From Candidatus Tectomicrobia bacterium (GTDB lineage: Bacteria > UBA8248): a stretch of 64,000 nucleotides of DNA. Below the pieces are notes generated by a model. It searched no databases, was not told where the DNA came from, and was given only the letters and a program-made list of their open reading frames with translations. The position numbers and the translations under genes were made by a program. This document shows, piece by piece, positions 1,957-10,267 of the stretch. The stretch covers positions 9,720 through 73,719 of the forward strand of contig JACPUR010000021.1 in NCBI GenBank assembly GCA_016192135.1, read 5' to 3'. Each line of letters begins with the position of its first letter. The first letter of the stretch is position 1.

Positions 1957-2820
1957 CTAACAGCGATCCTTCTCTTGCAGTCTCGCAAGGAGTTCTATCG
2001 ATCGTCTGAGCCTTTTTGTAAGCATCTGCGAATATGGCCCATCAATATGGGCCTGTTGCTCGTATCTACGAAGAATCGCTATTTCCCTTTCGTAATCCTT
2101 CTTCTTTCGAAAGATGATGGCGAGTTGCTCATATGGGAACGGAAAAACACCGAACCGATTTTTCTTGCTTTCTGCTTCTGCGACCCCCAGAAGTTGATTT
2201 AGAAGAGCTTCTGCCTCTTCAAACTTGCCCTCTCGTTTGAGCAATCTAATCTCTGCCATTTTGATGAAGAAATACTGCGGATCGCCCGGCCCTGGACTTG
2301 GTGGCGCTGTCGGATCGGCAAGCAACTTCAAATAGACTTTCACCAGCAATTTCGCATCACGCAATGCGCCATGTGTCACACGATCCGTGACGTCCACATT
2401 ATACCGCTCACATACTGCATCCAAAGAAGAAGGATGCCCAGGGTACTTGCACCGAAATAACAACATGGTGTCAATGGCTCGATCTTGCGGCAAAGGTGGA
2501 TACCCCGCCCGCGAAAACTCGGCATTCAAAAAGTTCAAATCAAATCTGGCATTGTGCATGATCAAAGCAGCATCGCCGAGAAATGTCAGCAATTTGTTTG
2601 CGACCCCCGAAAAGAACGGATGCTTCGAAAGAAATTTTCGTGTCAGTCCATGCACCTGACGCGCACCATCTGGAACATCTCGCTCAGGATTCAAATAAGA
2701 ATGAAAAATCCTACCGCTAGGGGCGCGGTCGATTAATTCGATACAACCTATTTCGACAATGCGATGGCCGCTCTTAGCGCCAAGACCCGTCGTTTCTGTA
2801 TCGAGCACGACCTCACGCAC
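1957..2820 (-). CDS. DnaQ-like DEDDh 3'-5' exonuclease with helical C-terminal domain
   Basis: A 287-residue protein of the DNA polymerase III epsilon-like exonuclease family, which removes nucleotides from 3' ends. ExoI is VLDTETTG (D7, E9), ExoII is NARFDLNFLN, and ExoIII is HGALRDAKL with the His-x4-Asp of the DEDDh class, so the catalytic set appears complete in residues 1-170. Residues about 180-287 (IKMAEIRLLKREGKFEEAEALL onward) resemble TPR-like helical pairs, an addition absent from the housekeeping epsilon subunit. Codon use is clearly AT-richer than the neighbours. The gene lies between two copies of the 3' end of the AhpD-like gene, suggesting it arrived with an insertion. A nuclease in repair, defence or a mobile element is possible; its true role is unknown. 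Confidence 0.8.
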   Translation of the reverse strand: MREVVLDTETTGLGAKSGHRIVEIGCIELIDRAPSGRIFHSYLNPERDVPDGARQVHGLTRKFLSKHPFFSGVANKLLTFLGDAALIMHNARFDLNFLNAEFSRAGYPPLPQDRAIDTMLLFRCKYPGHPSSLDAVCERYNVDVTDRVTHGALRDAKLLVKVYLKLLADPTAPPSPGPGDPQYFFIKMAEIRLLKREGKFEEAEALLNQLLGVAEAESKKNRFGVFPFPYEQLAIIFRKKKDYEREIAILRRYEQQAHIDGPYSQMLTKRLRRSIELLARLQEKDRC

Positions 2821-2851: not shown

Positions 2852-3406
2852 TCACCTCTTCCCCTTCTTCACCGCGCAGAACCCCTGAGCCTCGATGCGG
2901 AAGGCGTTGTTGAACTTGGAGCGGAAGTTTTCCATCGCCGCGACGCCGGCGAGCTCCACCAGCTCGTCGTCGGCGAACTCCGCCCGGGCCCGGGCGAAAC
3001 ACGCGTCGTCGAGGTCCAGGTCGGTGCGGGTCATGCGCTCGGCGAACTCGAGCGCCGCGCGCTCGCGGGGGCTGAAGCGCGGGTCGGAGGCGTGGGCCTC
3101 CAGCGCCTCCAGCTTCTCCCAGTCGATGCCGCTGCTCATCCCACGGGACGAGTTGATGTCCACTCAGAAGGGGCAGCCGTTGATCTGGGCCACCCGCACG
3201 CAGACCATCGCCTTGAGCCCAGGCTCGAGCAGCCCCGAGGTGTTGATGCCCTCCTGGAGCTGGTTGATGCCGCGCATGATGGTGGGCCGGCGGCCGTAGA
3301 CGCGCGAGGTGTTGAAGACGAAGCCGTGCTCCCTCTCCTGCGCCTCGAAGAGCTCCCGCGCCAGCGGGTCCTTCGCGGGGAGAGGGACTTCGGGGATGCG
3401 GGGCAT
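2852..3406 (-). CDS. AhpD/carboxymuconolactone-decarboxylase-like selenoprotein (recoded TGA)
   Basis: Read through an in-frame TGA at 3166-3164 this is one 184-residue protein. Residues 1-80 end in INGCPF, the TGA takes position 81, and VDINSSRG follows in the same frame without a gap. AhpD-like peroxidases and related decarboxylases carry a CxxC redox pair exactly here (NGCxxC-D), so the motif becomes C78-P79-F80-U81. A hairpin with a small G/U-containing apical loop follows 11 bases after the TGA, at the distance used by bacterial SECIS elements. The second half (ERAALEFAERMTRTDLDLDD, then ELVELAGVAAMENFRSKFNNAF) matches the C-terminal helices of the family. AGGAGG precedes the ATG by 5 bases. 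It lies 44 bases downstream of the cyclase gene, probably co-transcribed. Function inferred: thiol/selenol peroxidase. The alternative is a pseudogene split by a stop. Confidence 0.75.
3135..3152 (-). promoter_or_regulatory. Candidate bacterial SECIS hairpin
   Basis: Starting 11 bases after the TGA, CTCGTCC pairs with GGATGAG (one G-U pair) around the loop CGTG. Bacterial SECIS hairpins sit inside the coding region just after the UGA, with a short loop holding G and U residues bound by SelB. Position and size fit; the stem also encodes conserved protein residues. Confidence 0.55.
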
Positions 3407-3450
3407 GGATGCCTCCTCCTGCCGGTGGGGAACTTCGGTCCGCGGTTACG

Positions 3451-5244
3451 TCATACCACTTTCTGCGCCGCCTTCCACCGCACGATGTTGAAGGTGGGCA
3501 CGGGGCGCGTTAGGCCCTTGAGCTGCAGCTCGCCGACCGGCTCGGCCTCGGCCCGGTCCTCCACCCTGCCGAGCGTTCGCTGGTTGGTGAGGATCTGGCC
3601 GCCCTTGGCCTCCGAGGAGAGGCGGGCGGCGAGGTTCGTCACGTTGCCGATGGCGGCGTAGTCCATCCTCCCCTCGAACCCGACGGTCCCCAGGGTCGCG
3701 TAGCCGGCCGCCAAGCCCACGCCCAGGTCGAGGTCGTACCCCCGCCGCAGCCACCCCGGGCGGAGCTCCCGGACGCGGGCCTGCATCTCCAGGGCCATCT
3801 GGACCGCCCGGTCGGTGTGGTCCTCCTGCGGGATGGGATCGTTGAAGAAGACCATGATCCCGTCCCCCGCAAAGCGCTCGGTCGTTCCCTCGTATTTGAA
3901 GATGAGCCGGCCCATCTCGCCGTGGTAGCCCCGCAAAAACTCGAAGACCTCCTCGGGCTCGGTGCTGTCCGAGAAGTTCGTGAAACCGCGCAGGTCCAGG
4001 AAGATAACCGTCACCTCACGCCGCCGGACCCGGAAGGGGTCTTCGCCCCCGCTCTTGAGGACCGCCTCGGCGATCTGCGGAGAGAGGTAGCGCTTCATCC
4101 GGTTCACCCGCTCCGCCTCCTCCACCTCGCGGCGAACCTTGTCCGAGAGAGCCTCCTGGAGGGCGGCCCCCATCTTGTTGAACTCCTCCGCCAAGGCCTC
4201 GATTTCGTCGCCGGTCTTGAGCTCGATCCGGTAGCCGAAGTCCCCCGCCCCGATCTTCTCCACGCCCTCGCGCAGCCGCCCGAGGGGGCGCACCACCCGC
4301 CGCGCCACAAAAACGCTCGCCAGGAGCGCCGTCCCGAGCCCCAAGAGGAGGAGGCCGGAGGTCCTGAGAAGGGAGGCGTAGAGCCTCTCGTAGGCCTCCT
4401 CCACCGGCTGCTCGACGATGACGGCCCAGTCCAGCCCGGGAATACGCGCGGAGGAGCTGAAGACCGAGGCGCCTTGGAGGTTCACGCCTTTCGCGCCCCG
4501 CGGCCCCGCCCCGCCCGGCCCGCCTTCGGCGAACGCCTCGCGCGCCTGCGGAATCCCGGCCAGGCTCCTCCGCTGAAGGACCAGGCTGATGTCCGGGTGG
4601 GCGACGAGGTCCCCCGAGCGGGTGACGGCGTAGGCGTAGCCCGCCTTCCCGAGCCGGACGCCGGAGATCACGTCCCAGATGTACTTGAGGTTCACCTCGG
4701 CCTGGAGGACGCCGATAACCTCCCCCGCGAAGCGCTCGATGGGCATCGCGATGGTCATGTAGGGCTCGGAGCCCCGAACGAAGTAGACGGGGCCGAAATA
4801 GGACTTCCCCTGCTTCGCCTGGCGGAAGGCGGGGGAAGCGGACAGGTCGCGCCGCTGGCCGGGGGGCACGGTCCGCAGGCGCGAAACCTCCACCCGCCCG
4901 AACCCCGACTCGTCCAGCGCCAGGGCATCCGTGACGGGGGGGGAGATCAGGAGGAGCTTCCGAAGCTCGAACTGGAACTCGGGGGATATCCCCTTGGTGA
5001 CGATCTCCCGGCTCTTGGTGATGCCCTTCATCGTCCGCTCGATCTCGTGGACGAACTGCTCGATCTTGAATGCGGCCCCGGACGCAACCTCCCGCTGAAA
5101 GAGGGCGATTTGATCCCGGTTCTCGAAGTAGCGGAAGAAGAGCTCCACCAAGCCGCTCGTGATCAGCCCGCCGCCGATCAGGAGGACCGAAATGAGGTAA
5201 TAGTCGCGGACGAGCCGCCTGCGCCGACCTCCGCCTTCCGTCAC
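3451..5244 (-). CDS. Membrane-bound class III adenylate/guanylate cyclase with Cache-like sensor and HAMP
   Basis: A 597-residue sensor cyclase making cAMP or cGMP. TM1 is about residues 14-37, a periplasmic Cache-like domain about 38-285, TM2 about 292-315, HAMP about 316-368, and the catalytic domain about 400-575. Metal-binding aspartates are D417 (FLDLRGF) and D461 (FAGDGIMVFF). The base and transition-state residues are D528 (MDYAAIG), N537 and R541 (TNLAARL). The usual substrate lysine before the second Asp appears to be R457 (TTERFAGD), so specificity is uncertain. The GTG start overlaps the stop of the upstream binding-protein gene (GTGA), so translation is coupled. The selenoprotein gene follows after 44 bases. 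A signalling output for the binding-protein array is inferred. Confidence 0.85.
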   Translation of the reverse strand: MTEGGGRRRRLVRDYYLISVLLIGGGLITSGLVELFFRYFENRDQIALFQREVASGAAFKIEQFVHEIERTMKGITKSREIVTKGISPEFQFELRKLLLISPPVTDALALDESGFGRVEVSRLRTVPPGQRRDLSASPAFRQAKQGKSYFGPVYFVRGSEPYMTIAMPIERFAGEVIGVLQAEVNLKYIWDVISGVRLGKAGYAYAVTRSGDLVAHPDISLVLQRRSLAGIPQAREAFAEGGPGGAGPRGAKGVNLQGASVFSSSARIPGLDWAVIVEQPVEEAYERLYASLLRTSGLLLLGLGTALLASVFVARRVVRPLGRLREGVEKIGAGDFGYRIELKTGDEIEALAEEFNKMGAALQEALSDKVRREVEEAERVNRMKRYLSPQIAEAVLKSGGEDPFRVRRREVTVIFLDLRGFTNFSDSTEPEEVFEFLRGYHGEMGRLIFKYEGTTERFAGDGIMVFFNDPIPQEDHTDRAVQMALEMQARVRELRPGWLRRGYDLDLGVGLAAGYATLGTVGFEGRMDYAAIGNVTNLAARLSSEAKGGQILTNQRTLGRVEDRAEAEPVGELQLKGLTRPVPTFNIVRWKAAQKVV

Positions 5245-6224
5245 CGGATCACCCGGTCCGCCCGCTGGAGGACCTCGGGCGGTATCGTGATGCCCAGCGC
5301 CTTGGCCGTCTTGAGGTTGATCACCAGCTCCAACTTGGTCGGCCGCTCGACGGGGAGATCCCCTGGCTTGGCACCCTTGAGGATCTTGTCCACGAAGGCC
5401 GCCGAACGCCGATGATAATCATCGGAATTGGCTCCATAGGAGATGAGACCGCCATCGTGCGTCCAAAAGCTGGCCGGATACATTCCAGCCAGGCCGCTGC
5501 GGGCGGCCAGGCCGAGGATCTCCCGCCGGAGGTAGAGGAACGGCGGCCCCTGCTGCATGATGAAAGCGCCCACGCGAGCCTCGGCCATGCCGGCGAAGGC
5601 GCGCTCCGCTTCGGGGATGGTGCGCGCCTCGAAAACGAGAAGCTCCATCTCGAGTGCCCGGGCCGCCTCCCGCATTTCCTTCACCTGAACCTGGTGGATT
5701 GCATAGCCGGGATTCGCGATATGACCCACCCGCGCGAGCCCCGGGAGAACCTCCTTGAGCAGCTCCAGCCTCTTGGGCATCAAGTCACGGTTGATCGAGG
5801 TGATGCCCGTGAAGTTGCCCCCCGGACGCGCCAGGCTGGCCACCAAGCCGGTCCCGATCGGCTCGCTCACGGCCACAAAGACGACGGGGATCTTCGTCCC
5901 CGTCTTCTTGAGGGCCAGCGCTGCGGGGGTGGTCCGCACGAAAATCACATCCACCGGCAGGCGGGCCACCTCAGCCGCGAGGTCCTGGAGAGACTTGCGG
6001 CTCTCTCCCGCCCAGCGGTACTCGATGGCGATATTCCGCCCTTCGGCCCAGCCGTGCCCCCGCAGCCCTTCGAGGAACGCCTTGATGGCGGAAGAAGAGG
6101 GGCCGGGGGAACCGGTGGACAGGAATCCGATCCGACGAGGCTCCTCCAGCCGCTGGGCTTCGGCTGGCCAAGCCGAGGCCAGGAGGGCGAGAGCCATCGC
6201 GAAGATGGCGATTTTCCTGCTCAT
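5241..6224 (-). CDS. ABC transporter solute-binding protein (PF04392 type), copy 1
   Basis: A 327-residue periplasmic binding protein of the ABC_sub_bind/TrpX-like family. Signal peptide about residues 1-23 (MSRKIAIFAMALALLASAWPAEA-Q). The family signatures are all present: RRIGFLSTG, EGRNIAIEYRWA, SEPIGTGLVASLARPGGNFTG, KRLELLKEVLPGL, ISYGAN, DKILKGAKPGDLPVE and the terminal PPEVLQRADRVIR. It is by eye far closer to copy 5 at 9284-10267 than to the three copies between them. The stop overlaps the cyclase start by 4 bases. Family members deliver ligands to ABC permeases, but no permease or ATPase gene is within this window. Ligand unknown. Confidence 0.9.
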   Translation of the reverse strand: MSRKIAIFAMALALLASAWPAEAQRLEEPRRIGFLSTGSPGPSSSAIKAFLEGLRGHGWAEGRNIAIEYRWAGESRKSLQDLAAEVARLPVDVIFVRTTPAALALKKTGTKIPVVFVAVSEPIGTGLVASLARPGGNFTGITSINRDLMPKRLELLKEVLPGLARVGHIANPGYAIHQVQVKEMREAARALEMELLVFEARTIPEAERAFAGMAEARVGAFIMQQGPPFLYLRREILGLAARSGLAGMYPASFWTHDGGLISYGANSDDYHRRSAAFVDKILKGAKPGDLPVERPTKLELVINLKTAKALGITIPPEVLQRADRVIR

Positions 6225-6249
6225 GGATTTTTTCTCCCATCGGCTCCCG

Positions 6250-7233
6250 TCATTTGATCACCCTGTCCGCCCTTAAGAGCACCTCGGGCGGGATGGCGAT
6301 GCCCAGCGCCTTGGCCGCCTTGAGGTTGACCACCAGCTCGAAATTGGCCGGCCGCTCGACGGGGAGATCGGCGGGCTTGGCTCCTTTCAGGATCTTGTCC
6401 ACGTAGTAGGCGGCGCGCCTGTGCATGCCCGAGTAGCTTGGCCCATAGGACATCAAACCACCTAGTTCCACCAACTCTTGGTACGCGTACACCCCCGGCA
6501 GGCGGTTTTGGGTGATGAAGTCCACGATGCTCTTGCGGTGGTGCAGGAAGAGACGATCCGCCAACACGACGAGGGCGCTTGGCCGTTCTCGAAGAATCGC
6601 CGCAAAGGCATCGTCTAACTGCTCCCTGGCTCGCACCCCCAGAGACAGAACTTTTATCCCCAGGACCGGGGCCGCGGCCTGCACCTCCTTCTCGGAGACC
6701 ACCTGAAAAGCGCTGGCGGGATTCCAAAGGACAGCCACATGAGAGAGCTCGGGAATGACCTCCCGCAGCAACTCCAGCCGCTTCCCTTCCAGGTCAGCCG
6801 CAATCGAGGTCAGCCCCGTGATGTTTCCGCCGGGGCGAGCGAGGCTGTTGATGAGACCTGTCCCGACAGGATCTCCGACGGCCACCATCACGAAAGGAAT
6901 CGAGGACGTCGCCTTCTTGACGGCGAAGGCAGCCGGCGTTCCAGCGGAAACGATCACGTCCACCTTCAGGGCGATCAAATCGGCGAGCAGGGCGGGGAAG
7001 CGCTCATATCTCCCTTCCGCCCATCGGTACTCGATCAAGATGTTCTGTCCCTCGACGTAGCCGAGGTCACGCAACCCTTCGCGAAAAGGGCCAACGAGAT
7101 GCGCCTCACGGGCGGCGGTGGAGTTCCCCAAGAAGCCTATCCTGGGAATCCTTGCCCGATCCTGCCCTCCTGCGGGATAGGTCAAAGCGAACAAGGCCAA
7201 GGCTATGAAGAAGCCGGCGAAGCTCTTGGTCAT
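6250..7233 (-). CDS. ABC transporter solute-binding protein (PF04392 type), copy 2
   Basis: A 327-residue family member with signal peptide MTKSFAGFFIALALFALTYP..GGQ, then RIPRIGFLGN, EGQNILIEYRWAEGR, VGDPVGTGLINSLARPGGN, KRLELLREVIPEL, LMSYGPSYSGMHRRAAYYVDK and the terminal PPEVLLRADRVIK. The ATG at 7233 is chosen because it opens the signal peptide; the frame stays open far upstream only because of high GC. It lies 25 bases before copy 1 and 29 bases after copy 3, so it is inside the operon. The binding-cleft residues differ from copy 1, so a different ligand is likely. Copy 2 has the MSYGP form of the hinge motif where copy 1 has ISYGAN. Confidence 0.9.
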   Translation of the reverse strand: MTKSFAGFFIALALFALTYPAGGQDRARIPRIGFLGNSTAAREAHLVGPFREGLRDLGYVEGQNILIEYRWAEGRYERFPALLADLIALKVDVIVSAGTPAAFAVKKATSSIPFVMVAVGDPVGTGLINSLARPGGNITGLTSIAADLEGKRLELLREVIPELSHVAVLWNPASAFQVVSEKEVQAAAPVLGIKVLSLGVRAREQLDDAFAAILRERPSALVVLADRLFLHHRKSIVDFITQNRLPGVYAYQELVELGGLMSYGPSYSGMHRRAAYYVDKILKGAKPADLPVERPANFELVVNLKAAKALGIAIPPEVLLRADRVIK

Positions 7234-7262
7234 CAAACGTCCCTCCCACATTTCGCGGCTTT

Positions 7263-8243
7263 TCACCGGATCACCCGGTCCGCCCGCTGCAAGACCTCGG
7301 GCGGGATGGTGATTCCCAGCGCCTTCGCCGTCTTCAAGTTGATCACCAGCTCGAACTTGATCGGCTGCTCGACGGGGAGATCGGCGGGCTTGGCGCCCTT
7401 GAGTATCTTGTCCACGTAGAGGGCCGCGCGGCGGAACAAGTCGGAACGGTCCGGCCCATACGCCACGAGGCCGCCAGTTTCCGCGAATTCCTTGAGGTGA
7501 AATACCGCCGGGAGGCGATTCTTGGCCGCCAGCTCCGCGAGCCGTTTCATGTTCCCCGCGAACACCGGGTTGGGCATAATGGCAAGGGCGCCCGCGCCCG
7601 TCCTCTTTGCCTCCTCGAACGCCTTGTCGAGACCGCCCGGGCTCCGCACCTCCACCGAATGGAGCTCGATTCCCAGCTGCCGCGCCGGGAGCTGGGTCTC
7701 GTTCCAACCGAGCGTGGAGATCCGGCCCCTGGGGTTCCAGAGCACTGCCACGCGGGAGAGGCCGGGGACCATCTCCTTGAGCAGCTCCAGCCGCTTTCCA
7801 CCCATCTCCGGGGCCATTTGGGTCAGCCCCGTGACGTTGCCGCCAGGCCGGGCCAGGCTCTGAACGAGCCCGCTGCCAAGGGCGTCGCCCGTAGACGCCA
7901 TGACGATGGGAATTGTCTTGGTGAAGTTCTTGGCGACCAGCGCATCGGTGCTGACGGCCGCGACGATGACCTCGACCCTGAGCCGGACGAGATCCGCCGC
8001 GAGGCCGGGGAGGCGGTCCTCCCTGCCCTCCGCGTACCGGTACTCGACGCGGATGTTCCTTCCCTCCACCCATCCGAGGTCGCGGAGGCCTCGCCGGAAC
8101 GCCTCGTGCCAGAGCGCCGTGGCGGAAGGAGTGAACGGCGACAGGACTCCTATCCGGCGGATTTCCGCAGGCTGCGCCCCGGCCGGCTGGGTGGAGGCCA
8201 GGAGGGCGAGAGCCATGGCGAAGACAACGGTCTTCCGGCTCAT
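7263..8243 (-). CDS. ABC transporter solute-binding protein (PF04392 type), copy 3
   Basis: A 326-residue exported binding protein: signal peptide MSRKTVVFAMALALLASTQPAGA-Q, then IRRIGVLSPFTPSATALWHEAF, EGRNIRVEYRYAEGREDRLP, STGDALGSGLVQSLARPGGNVTG, KRLELLKEMVPGLSRVAVLWNP, VAYGPDRSDLFRRAALYVDK and the terminal PPEVLQRADRVIR. Its signal peptide is nearly that of copies 1 and 5, while the mature part is diverged, which fits old duplication followed by ligand change. Gaps of 29 and 33 bases to its neighbours place it in the same operon. No transport partner gene is next to it. Confidence 0.9.
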   Translation of the reverse strand: MSRKTVVFAMALALLASTQPAGAQPAEIRRIGVLSPFTPSATALWHEAFRRGLRDLGWVEGRNIRVEYRYAEGREDRLPGLAADLVRLRVEVIVAAVSTDALVAKNFTKTIPIVMASTGDALGSGLVQSLARPGGNVTGLTQMAPEMGGKRLELLKEMVPGLSRVAVLWNPRGRISTLGWNETQLPARQLGIELHSVEVRSPGGLDKAFEEAKRTGAGALAIMPNPVFAGNMKRLAELAAKNRLPAVFHLKEFAETGGLVAYGPDRSDLFRRAALYVDKILKGAKPADLPVEQPIKFELVINLKTAKALGITIPPEVLQRADRVIR

Positions 8244-8276
8244 GATTTTCTTCCTCCTAACACCTTCCGCCCTCCC

Positions 8277-9287
8277 TCACTTGATCACCCGGTCCGCCCG
8301 CATGAGCATCTCCGGCGGAATCTCCAGGCCGATCTTCTTGGCGGTCTTGAGATTGATGATGAGATCGATCTTGTTGGCGCCCTCGACGGGAAGATCCTGG
8401 GGCCGGGCGCCCCGCAGGATTTTCGCGACGAGCCGCGCCGCCTGGCGCCCCTGGGCATGATAATCGGCCCCGTACGAGACCAGCGCACCGTGGCCAGCCC
8501 AAAAAGCTGGCCCAAAGATGATGGGCACTCTAGCCGATAGCGAGGCCTGCAACGTCTGATCGGGAATGTCGAGAGCCGCAACGTCCGGGGCCATGAGACC
8601 GTCGCCCGGTTGCAGGCTCTTCAGACTGCGGGCCAATTCCTCGGACGTCCGCACCGGCAGAGCCAGCAGCCCGATCCGCAGGATGGGAGCGGCCTCCTGG
8701 GCCTTTCGGGCCGCCGCGATGGATTGGGGATCATCCGCCTCATATATCACCAGGACGCGGCGGAGGCCCGGGGCGATCGTCTTGAGGATTTCCAGCCGTT
8801 TAGGCGCCAGTTCGGTGAAAAGAGCCGACACCCCGGTGACGTTACCCTGGGGACGGGCGAAACTCGCGACGATCCCGGCGGCCACAGGGTCGCCTACCCC
8901 CGTGAAGACGATGGGAATCTTCTGGGTAGTGGCCATAGCCGCCTTGGTCGCCGCTTCATTGGTCGTGAAGATGAGGTTCGCCCCGGCCTTTATAAGCGCG
9001 GCCGCGGCCATGGGCATGGCCTGGAAGTTCCCCTTTGTGAAGCGGATGTCAAAGAGCACATCATTGCCTTCCCTGATGCCCATTTCCTTCAGACCGGCCT
9101 TGAGTCCTTCGACAGCGGGGTGATTGGGAGCCCACGCCCCGGTAATGGCCCCGATCCGATAAGGGTCTCGGACCCGCTGAGCCTCGGCTCGAAGAACACC
9201 CAGCAGAACAACCGCGGCCAGCAGGCAAGAAGCGGCCCTTCTGCCCGTCGTTTTCTGTGGGAGCGTTCGCCGCGCCTTGGGCTTCAT
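8277..9287 (-). CDS. ABC transporter solute-binding protein (PF04392 type), copy 4, divergent
   Basis: A 336-residue member and the most divergent of the array. The signal peptide is long and basic (MKPKARRTLPQK.., core CLLAAVVLLGVLRAEA-Q). The family marks are YRIGAITGAW, IREGNDVLFDIRFTKGNFQAM, TGVGDPVAAGIVASFARPQGNVTG, KRLEILKTIAPGLRRVLVIYE, LVSYGADYHAQGRQAARLVAKIL and PPEMLMRADRVIK. The ATG at 9287 overlaps the stop of copy 5 by 4 bases (ATGA), so the two are translationally coupled. The N-terminal cleft (WAPNHPAVEGLKAGLKE) resembles copy 6 (WVPWHSQTNGFREGLSQ) more than copies 1-3, suggesting that 4 and 6 share an older origin. Confidence 0.88.
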   Translation of the reverse strand: MKPKARRTLPQKTTGRRAASCLLAAVVLLGVLRAEAQRVRDPYRIGAITGAWAPNHPAVEGLKAGLKEMGIREGNDVLFDIRFTKGNFQAMPMAAAALIKAGANLIFTTNEAATKAAMATTQKIPIVFTGVGDPVAAGIVASFARPQGNVTGVSALFTELAPKRLEILKTIAPGLRRVLVIYEADDPQSIAAARKAQEAAPILRIGLLALPVRTSEELARSLKSLQPGDGLMAPDVAALDIPDQTLQASLSARVPIIFGPAFWAGHGALVSYGADYHAQGRQAARLVAKILRGARPQDLPVEGANKIDLIINLKTAKKIGLEIPPEMLMRADRVIK

Positions 9288-10267
9288 TTGATCACCCGGT
9301 CCGCCCGCTGCAAGACCTCCGGCGGTATCGTGATTCCCAGCGCCTTCGCCGTCTTGAGGTTGATGAACAGCTCGATCTTCGTAGGCCGCTCGATGGGGAG
9401 GTCGGCCGGCTTCGCGCCCTTGAGGATCTTGTCCACGTATGCCGCCGAGCGCCTGTGGTGATCCTCGGCGTTCGCCCCGTAGGAGATGAGGCAGCCATCG
9501 CGCGCCCAAAAGCCGACTAAACACATTCCCGGGAGACGGTGCCGGGCGGCCAGGTCGATGATCTGCCGCGGGTGGGAGAGGAACGGGTGGCCCTGGCCCA
9601 TGATGAAAGCCCCCACCCGGGCCTCGGCCATGGCGGCGAAAGCGCGCTCCGCCTCGGGGAGGGTGCGCGCTTCAAATACGACAAGCTCCATGCCAAAAGA
9701 CCGGGCGGCCTCCTGCATCTCCTTCACCTGAACCTTGTGGATCGCATAGCCGGGATTCGCCACGTGGCCCACCCGCCTGAGCCCCGGGAGAACCTCCTTG
9801 AGGAGCTCCAGCCGCTTGGGCATCAAGTCGCGGTTGATGGAAGTGATGCCCGTGAAGTTGCCCCCCGGCCGCGCCAGGCTGGCGACCAGGCCGGTCCCGA
9901 TCGGTTCGCTCACGAGCACGAAGACGACGGGGAGCTTCGTCCCCGTCTTCTTGAGGGCCAGCGCCGCGGGCGTAGTCCGCACGTAAATCAAATCCACCGG
10001 AAGCCGGGCCGCCTCGGCCGCGAGCTCCTGGAGAGACTTGCGGCTCTCCCCCGCCCAGCGGTACTCGATGGCGAGGTTCCGGCCGACGACCCAGCCGTGC
10101 GCCCGCAGCCCCTCGAGGAACGCCTGGACGGCGGAAGCCGTGGGGCCGGGGGAGCCGGTGGACAGGAACCCAATCCGGCGCGGCTCCTCCTGCCGCTGGG
10201 CTTCGGCCGGCCATGCGGAAGCGAGAAGGGCAAAGAGTGCCACGAAGACGGCAATCGTACGACGCAC
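9284..10267 (-). CDS. ABC transporter solute-binding protein (PF04392 type), copy 5
   Basis: A 327-residue protein of the same length as copy 1 and very like it along its whole length (shared RRIGFLSTGSPGP, EYRWAGESRKSLQ, GNFTGITSINRDLMPKRLE, VQVKEM, SYGAN). I chose the GTG at 10267: it opens a normal signal peptide (RRTIAVFVALFALLASAWPAEA-Q) and has GGAGG 7 bases upstream. The longer GTG-initiated frame from 10294 overlaps the stop of the decayed copy upstream and adds an unlikely nine residues. It is coupled to copy 4 by ATGA. The close pair 1/5 at both ends of the sub-array suggests a recent duplication or gene conversion. Confidence 0.88.
   Translation of the reverse strand: MRRTIAVFVALFALLASAWPAEAQRQEEPRRIGFLSTGSPGPTASAVQAFLEGLRAHGWVVGRNLAIEYRWAGESRKSLQELAAEAARLPVDLIYVRTTPAALALKKTGTKLPVVFVLVSEPIGTGLVASLARPGGNFTGITSINRDLMPKRLELLKEVLPGLRRVGHVANPGYAIHKVQVKEMQEAARSFGMELVVFEARTLPEAERAFAAMAEARVGAFIMGQGHPFLSHPRQIIDLAARHRLPGMCLVGFWARDGCLISYGANAEDHHRRSAAYVDKILKGAKPADLPIERPTKIELFINLKTAKALGITIPPEVLQRADRVIK

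Follow-up and report, generated by a model that had tools for sequence, protein, structure and literature searches.

CxxU selenoproteins of the AhpD-like type, belonging to COG2128 (YciW) and TIGR01926, have been known since 2005, when they were described from the Sargasso Sea (PMC1088965). They were also found in GOS 2008 (PMC2398784) and are included in reviews (PMC9312934, PMC13188914). The gene studied here lies on the minus strand, at positions 3406..2852 of a 64,000-nucleotide stretch of contig JACPUR010000021.1 from a Candidatus Tectomicrobia bacterium (assembly GCA_016192135.1), which is called the window throughout. With the COG2128/YciW proteins it shares the superfamily, a CxxU motif with the proposed selenocysteine in second place and a bacterial SECIS-like hairpin after the UGA. 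Against the TIGR01926 model for peroxidase-related enzymes, however, it reaches 50.4 bits with a subfamily cut-off of 81.8, and it therefore falls into a divergent subgroup. The best curated model is NCBIfam NF053654, 'YciW-related (seleno)protein' (GroundWater_YciW), the name of which already admits selenocysteine and which covers residues 1-175 of 184 (E=1.8e-46). The score of 158.2 bits is nevertheless far from the equivalog cut-off of 310, and by this measure the gene is a putative representative of a sister group and not a member.

The apparently broken gene is almost certainly intact and encodes a redox enzyme with a selenocysteine in its active site, which corrects a gene that automated annotation would split in two or call a pseudogene. 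To the AhpD/YciW-like selenoproteins it would add a well-supported divergent subgroup with a clearly covarying SECIS hairpin.

Continuity of the gene across TGA codon 81

A sequence-only reading of the window had recognized two half genes that abut in one frame and are separated by a TGA, and all of its coordinates proved exact. The upstream half extends from the ATG at 3406 to position 3167 (80 aa) and is preceded by a Shine-Dalgarno-like AGGAGGAGG (3412..3420, minus strand), 5 nt 5' of the ATG. It is followed by the TGA at 3166-3164, the proposed selenocysteine codon 81 in the motif C78-P-F-U81. The downstream half (3163..2852, 103 aa) continues in the same frame, which closes at a second TGA (2854-2852); homology stops immediately ahead of this terminal codon. 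Frame, domain match, homologues, dN/dS and predicted fold all identify a single AhpD/CMD-like gene of 184 codons (2852..3406, minus strand).

Mechanical ORF calling produces two pieces, just as the earlier reading had anticipated, and its statement that codon use and family conservation run on unbroken across the TGA likewise stands. GC3 amounts to 0.94 before the TGA and 0.96 after it. The read-through protein matches the Pfam CMD family (PF02627) with residues 41-123, that is across the junction, with 55.5 bits (E=5.6e-15) and thus well above the gathering score of 23 bits. Taken by itself, the upstream half is barely at the cut-off, and the downstream half on its own has no match in Pfam. 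The dN/dS is 0.25-0.62 after the TGA versus 0.29-0.80 before it. Purifying selection thus acts on both halves alike, which speaks against a decayed tail.

Homologues were collected from public genomes and from those of the nearest relatives by six search patterns, one of which carried Cys at position 81, so that any sampling bias is directed against TGA and not towards it. Column 81 is covered by 84 loci, the window's own copy counted, and is occupied by TGA in 66 and by Cys in 18 of them, with nothing else found, while the first redox residue is Cys in all 84. The TGA therefore stands where relatives have the second redox cysteine, as had been proposed. The six own-family orthologues (53-70% identity) all have TGA at the same codon, and so do 47 alpha- and gammaproteobacterial loci (38-48% identity), among them Reyranella isolates. 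A quick tree with some long branches unites the window gene with its own-family orthologues (support 99) and places the alpha- and gammaproteobacterial TGA set (support 84) beside them; the Cys form of three gammaproteobacteria falls outside the TGA sets.

Hairpin and genes for selenocysteine insertion

A SECIS-type hairpin (3135..3152, minus strand) with a 7-bp stem and a CGUG loop, CUCGUCC-CGUG-GGAUGAG, starts 11 nt after the TGA. Position and distance had been given exactly by the sequence-only reading, and the element is both conserved and covarying, but on its own it is not unusually stable: in single-sequence folding it is no stabler than shuffled sequence (z = 0.29). Its significance derives from conservation and covariation. 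All 7 own-family orthologues have the hairpin at the same place with 100% standard pairs and a CGUG loop, except for GGCA in one. In the alpha- and gammaproteobacterial set it is found at +11 nt with 97% standard pairs and, with one exception, a CGUGU or CGUGC loop. The two strands of the stem change together, from CUCGUCC/GGAUGAG in the window to UUCAUCC/GGAUGAA in relatives and to UUCCAGC/GCUGGAA and UUCCGUC/GACGGAA in proteobacteria. Synonymous-codon controls gave a mean pairing of 57% for the own family and 62% for the alpha- and gammaproteobacterial set, and the observed value was reached in none of 2000 draws; Cys homologues pair to only 32-43% at this position. Rfam SECIS_1 has no match in the genome, but since it has none in any of the controls either, this result is uninformative; an Rfam scan of the gene returned chance-level matches only.

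The own genome is assembled into 41 contigs with a total of 3.92 Mb, at a completeness of 96.8%. It contains selA (C15:42711-44093, 540 bits) with selB next to it on the same strand, and a gene for tRNA-Sec (selC) with a UCA anticodon (C28:5467-5559, 74.8 bits). The sequence-only reading had named selA, selB, selC and selD as the genes to look for, and the first three are there; for selD the assembly yields matches below the cut-off only, the best of which sits in what looks like a thiamine-phosphate kinase ORF. The gene is found in 14 of 18 family genomes, both same-genus genomes included. A selD-neighbour protein of one same-genus genome, the only such protein tested, likewise had no match in the own assembly, in a search that included no positive control. 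Because relatives have selD and the tested neighbour protein is missing together with it, a gap in the assembly is the likely explanation, and SelD would be the probable source of selenophosphate. The selD genes of the family themselves hold one in-frame TGA each (14 genomes; L102-L109 and others). Among eight genomes tested outside the family, a SelB domain is encoded in 6/6 with the TGA form and in 0/2 with the Cys form.

We consider it very highly probable that the gene is an intact AhpD/CMD-fold selenoprotein gene, in which selenocysteine is incorporated at UGA 81 by means of SelA, SelB, tRNA-Sec and the hairpin. SelA would convert serine on tRNA-Sec(UCA) to selenocysteine. SelB, by binding both this tRNA and the hairpin that begins 11 nt past the UGA, would bring the tRNA to ribosomes that have reached codon 81. 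The final UGA would be read as an ordinary stop.

The gene is represented by one MAG sequence only and breaks into two fragments upon mechanical ORF calling, as would be expected of an ordinary CxxC gene interrupted by a nonsense change or by a sequencing or assembly error. The comparative data in practice refute a pseudogene or error, to which we attach next to no probability: independent assemblies carry the same TGA in the six own-family orthologues and the 47 proteobacterial loci, Reyranella isolates included, the dN/dS values of the downstream half indicate purifying selection, and the hairpin covaries. Translational re-initiation, with the TGA as a true stop between two genes, could make use of a GTG codon that lies directly 3' of the TGA. 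Homologues, however, often have ATT, ATC or CTC in this place, and the post-TGA codon is not preceded by a Shine-Dalgarno-like run. As, in addition, the CMD match and a predicted helix (79-91) both cross the junction and Cys homologues consist of a single chain, we reject a split gene as extremely improbable.

A continuous frame would result just as well if TGA were read as Trp or some other amino acid, through reassignment of the codon or through suppression. Yet all homologues without TGA have Cys at this column, the same gene terminates at TGA, and the genome encodes tRNA-Sec, SelA and SelB. Furthermore, among the eight genomes tested outside the family, the TGA form occurs in those that use selenocysteine and the Cys form in those that do not. 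With Cys as the sole alternative in the column, a TGA stop within the same gene and the selenocysteine machinery at hand, this explanation is rejected and its likelihood is regarded as negligible.

Active site, putative function and genomic context

The AlphaFold2 model of the protein is all-helical and confident (pLDDT 93.1) and places the redox pair C78/U81 on a helical hairpin formed by helices 62-76 and 79-91. The best fold matches in the PDB are the AhpD-like proteins 2prr, 2gmy and 2ijc and the debrominase Bmp8 (6ohi, 6ohj). Unlike for Bmp8, with which identity is about 20%, there is no sign of a halogenated substrate for the window protein. AhpD alkylhydroperoxidases (M. tuberculosis AhpD; PA0269) share the helical fold and a redox pair, CxxC there and CxxU here, and M. 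tuberculosis AhpD itself is a weak fold match (E 0.3).

In AhpD, a proton relay is formed by Glu118, Cys130, His132, Cys133 and His137 (PMC3141380). With the motif as the point of reference, the Glu lies 12 residues ahead of the first Cys and the last His 4 residues past the second, and the corresponding residues of the window protein are Ala66, Cys78, Phe80, Sec81 and Asn85. It thus retains the redox pair, with Sec instead of the second Cys, but lacks the relay Glu, His/Tyr and His. Among the Cys homologues, the three closest carry Thr at position 66 and Asn at position 85, and the loss of the acid/base residues is therefore not tied to selenocysteine. A selenol is mostly ionised at neutral pH and may dispense with such residues. 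Since the relay residues are absent and a selenol may not need them, we prefer the label 'CxxU oxidoreductase', with peroxidase as one option. Of the designation 'AhpD-like peroxidase' given in the sequence-only reading, the AhpD/CMD fold and the CxxU pair hold true, but 'peroxidase' is a family name only, as the relay residues are not conserved. Judged from motif and fold, the product is most likely a thiol/selenol oxidoreductase, in which the pair C78-x-x-U81 would reduce peroxide or another electrophile via a selenenyl-sulfide intermediate.

In all six own-family orthologues, a gene for a PEMT/ICMT-like membrane methyltransferase is situated directly upstream on the same strand (L114:6192-6698, L115:6284-6787, L116:5704-6237, L117:8020-8592, L118:3482-3931 and L119:8705-9163). 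In the window, its upstream place is held by a gene for a Cache-HAMP-adenylate/guanylate cyclase (3451..5244, minus strand), and elsewhere in the own genome only weak methyltransferase matches occur. The downstream neighbour in the window is an exonuclease (RNase_T) gene (1957..2820, minus strand); both neighbours are regarded as context only. It is conceivable, albeit rather unlikely, that this bacterial family and the Reyranella-type proteobacteria share a distinct selenocysteine-dependent subfamily without the AhpD acid/base residues, the selenol of which would catalyze a reaction other than peroxide reduction, maybe with the PEMT/ICMT-like methyltransferase as a partner in the relatives. 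Further along the window, several adjacent genes on the minus strand (5241-9524) encode similar proteins of ~325 aa, which resemble the substrate-binding proteins of ABC transporters.

Further candidate selenoproteins

The own genome contains 16 CMD matches, six of which have one in-frame TGA, and the lineage thus appears to use selenocysteine heavily in the CMD fold. The five matches other than the gene described here are probable additional selenoproteins; they are located at C4:70420-70947 (plus strand, motif CDFU), C4:88145-88687 (minus strand, CAYU), C13:41904, C32:19011 and C40:68399. Within the window, a screen for other selenocysteine genes by GC3 and read-through gave six candidates, 0/6 with a Pfam match. 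The review PMC13188914 mentions a Methylomirabilota MAG for which 63 selenoprotein genes have been predicted. A second group of CMD selenoproteins, with a CPHU motif (L076, L091, L092, L093 and L094), has a longer and stronger hairpin after the TGA, approximately GGCGCGGAGUCUCCGCGCC, which again carries GU in the loop region.
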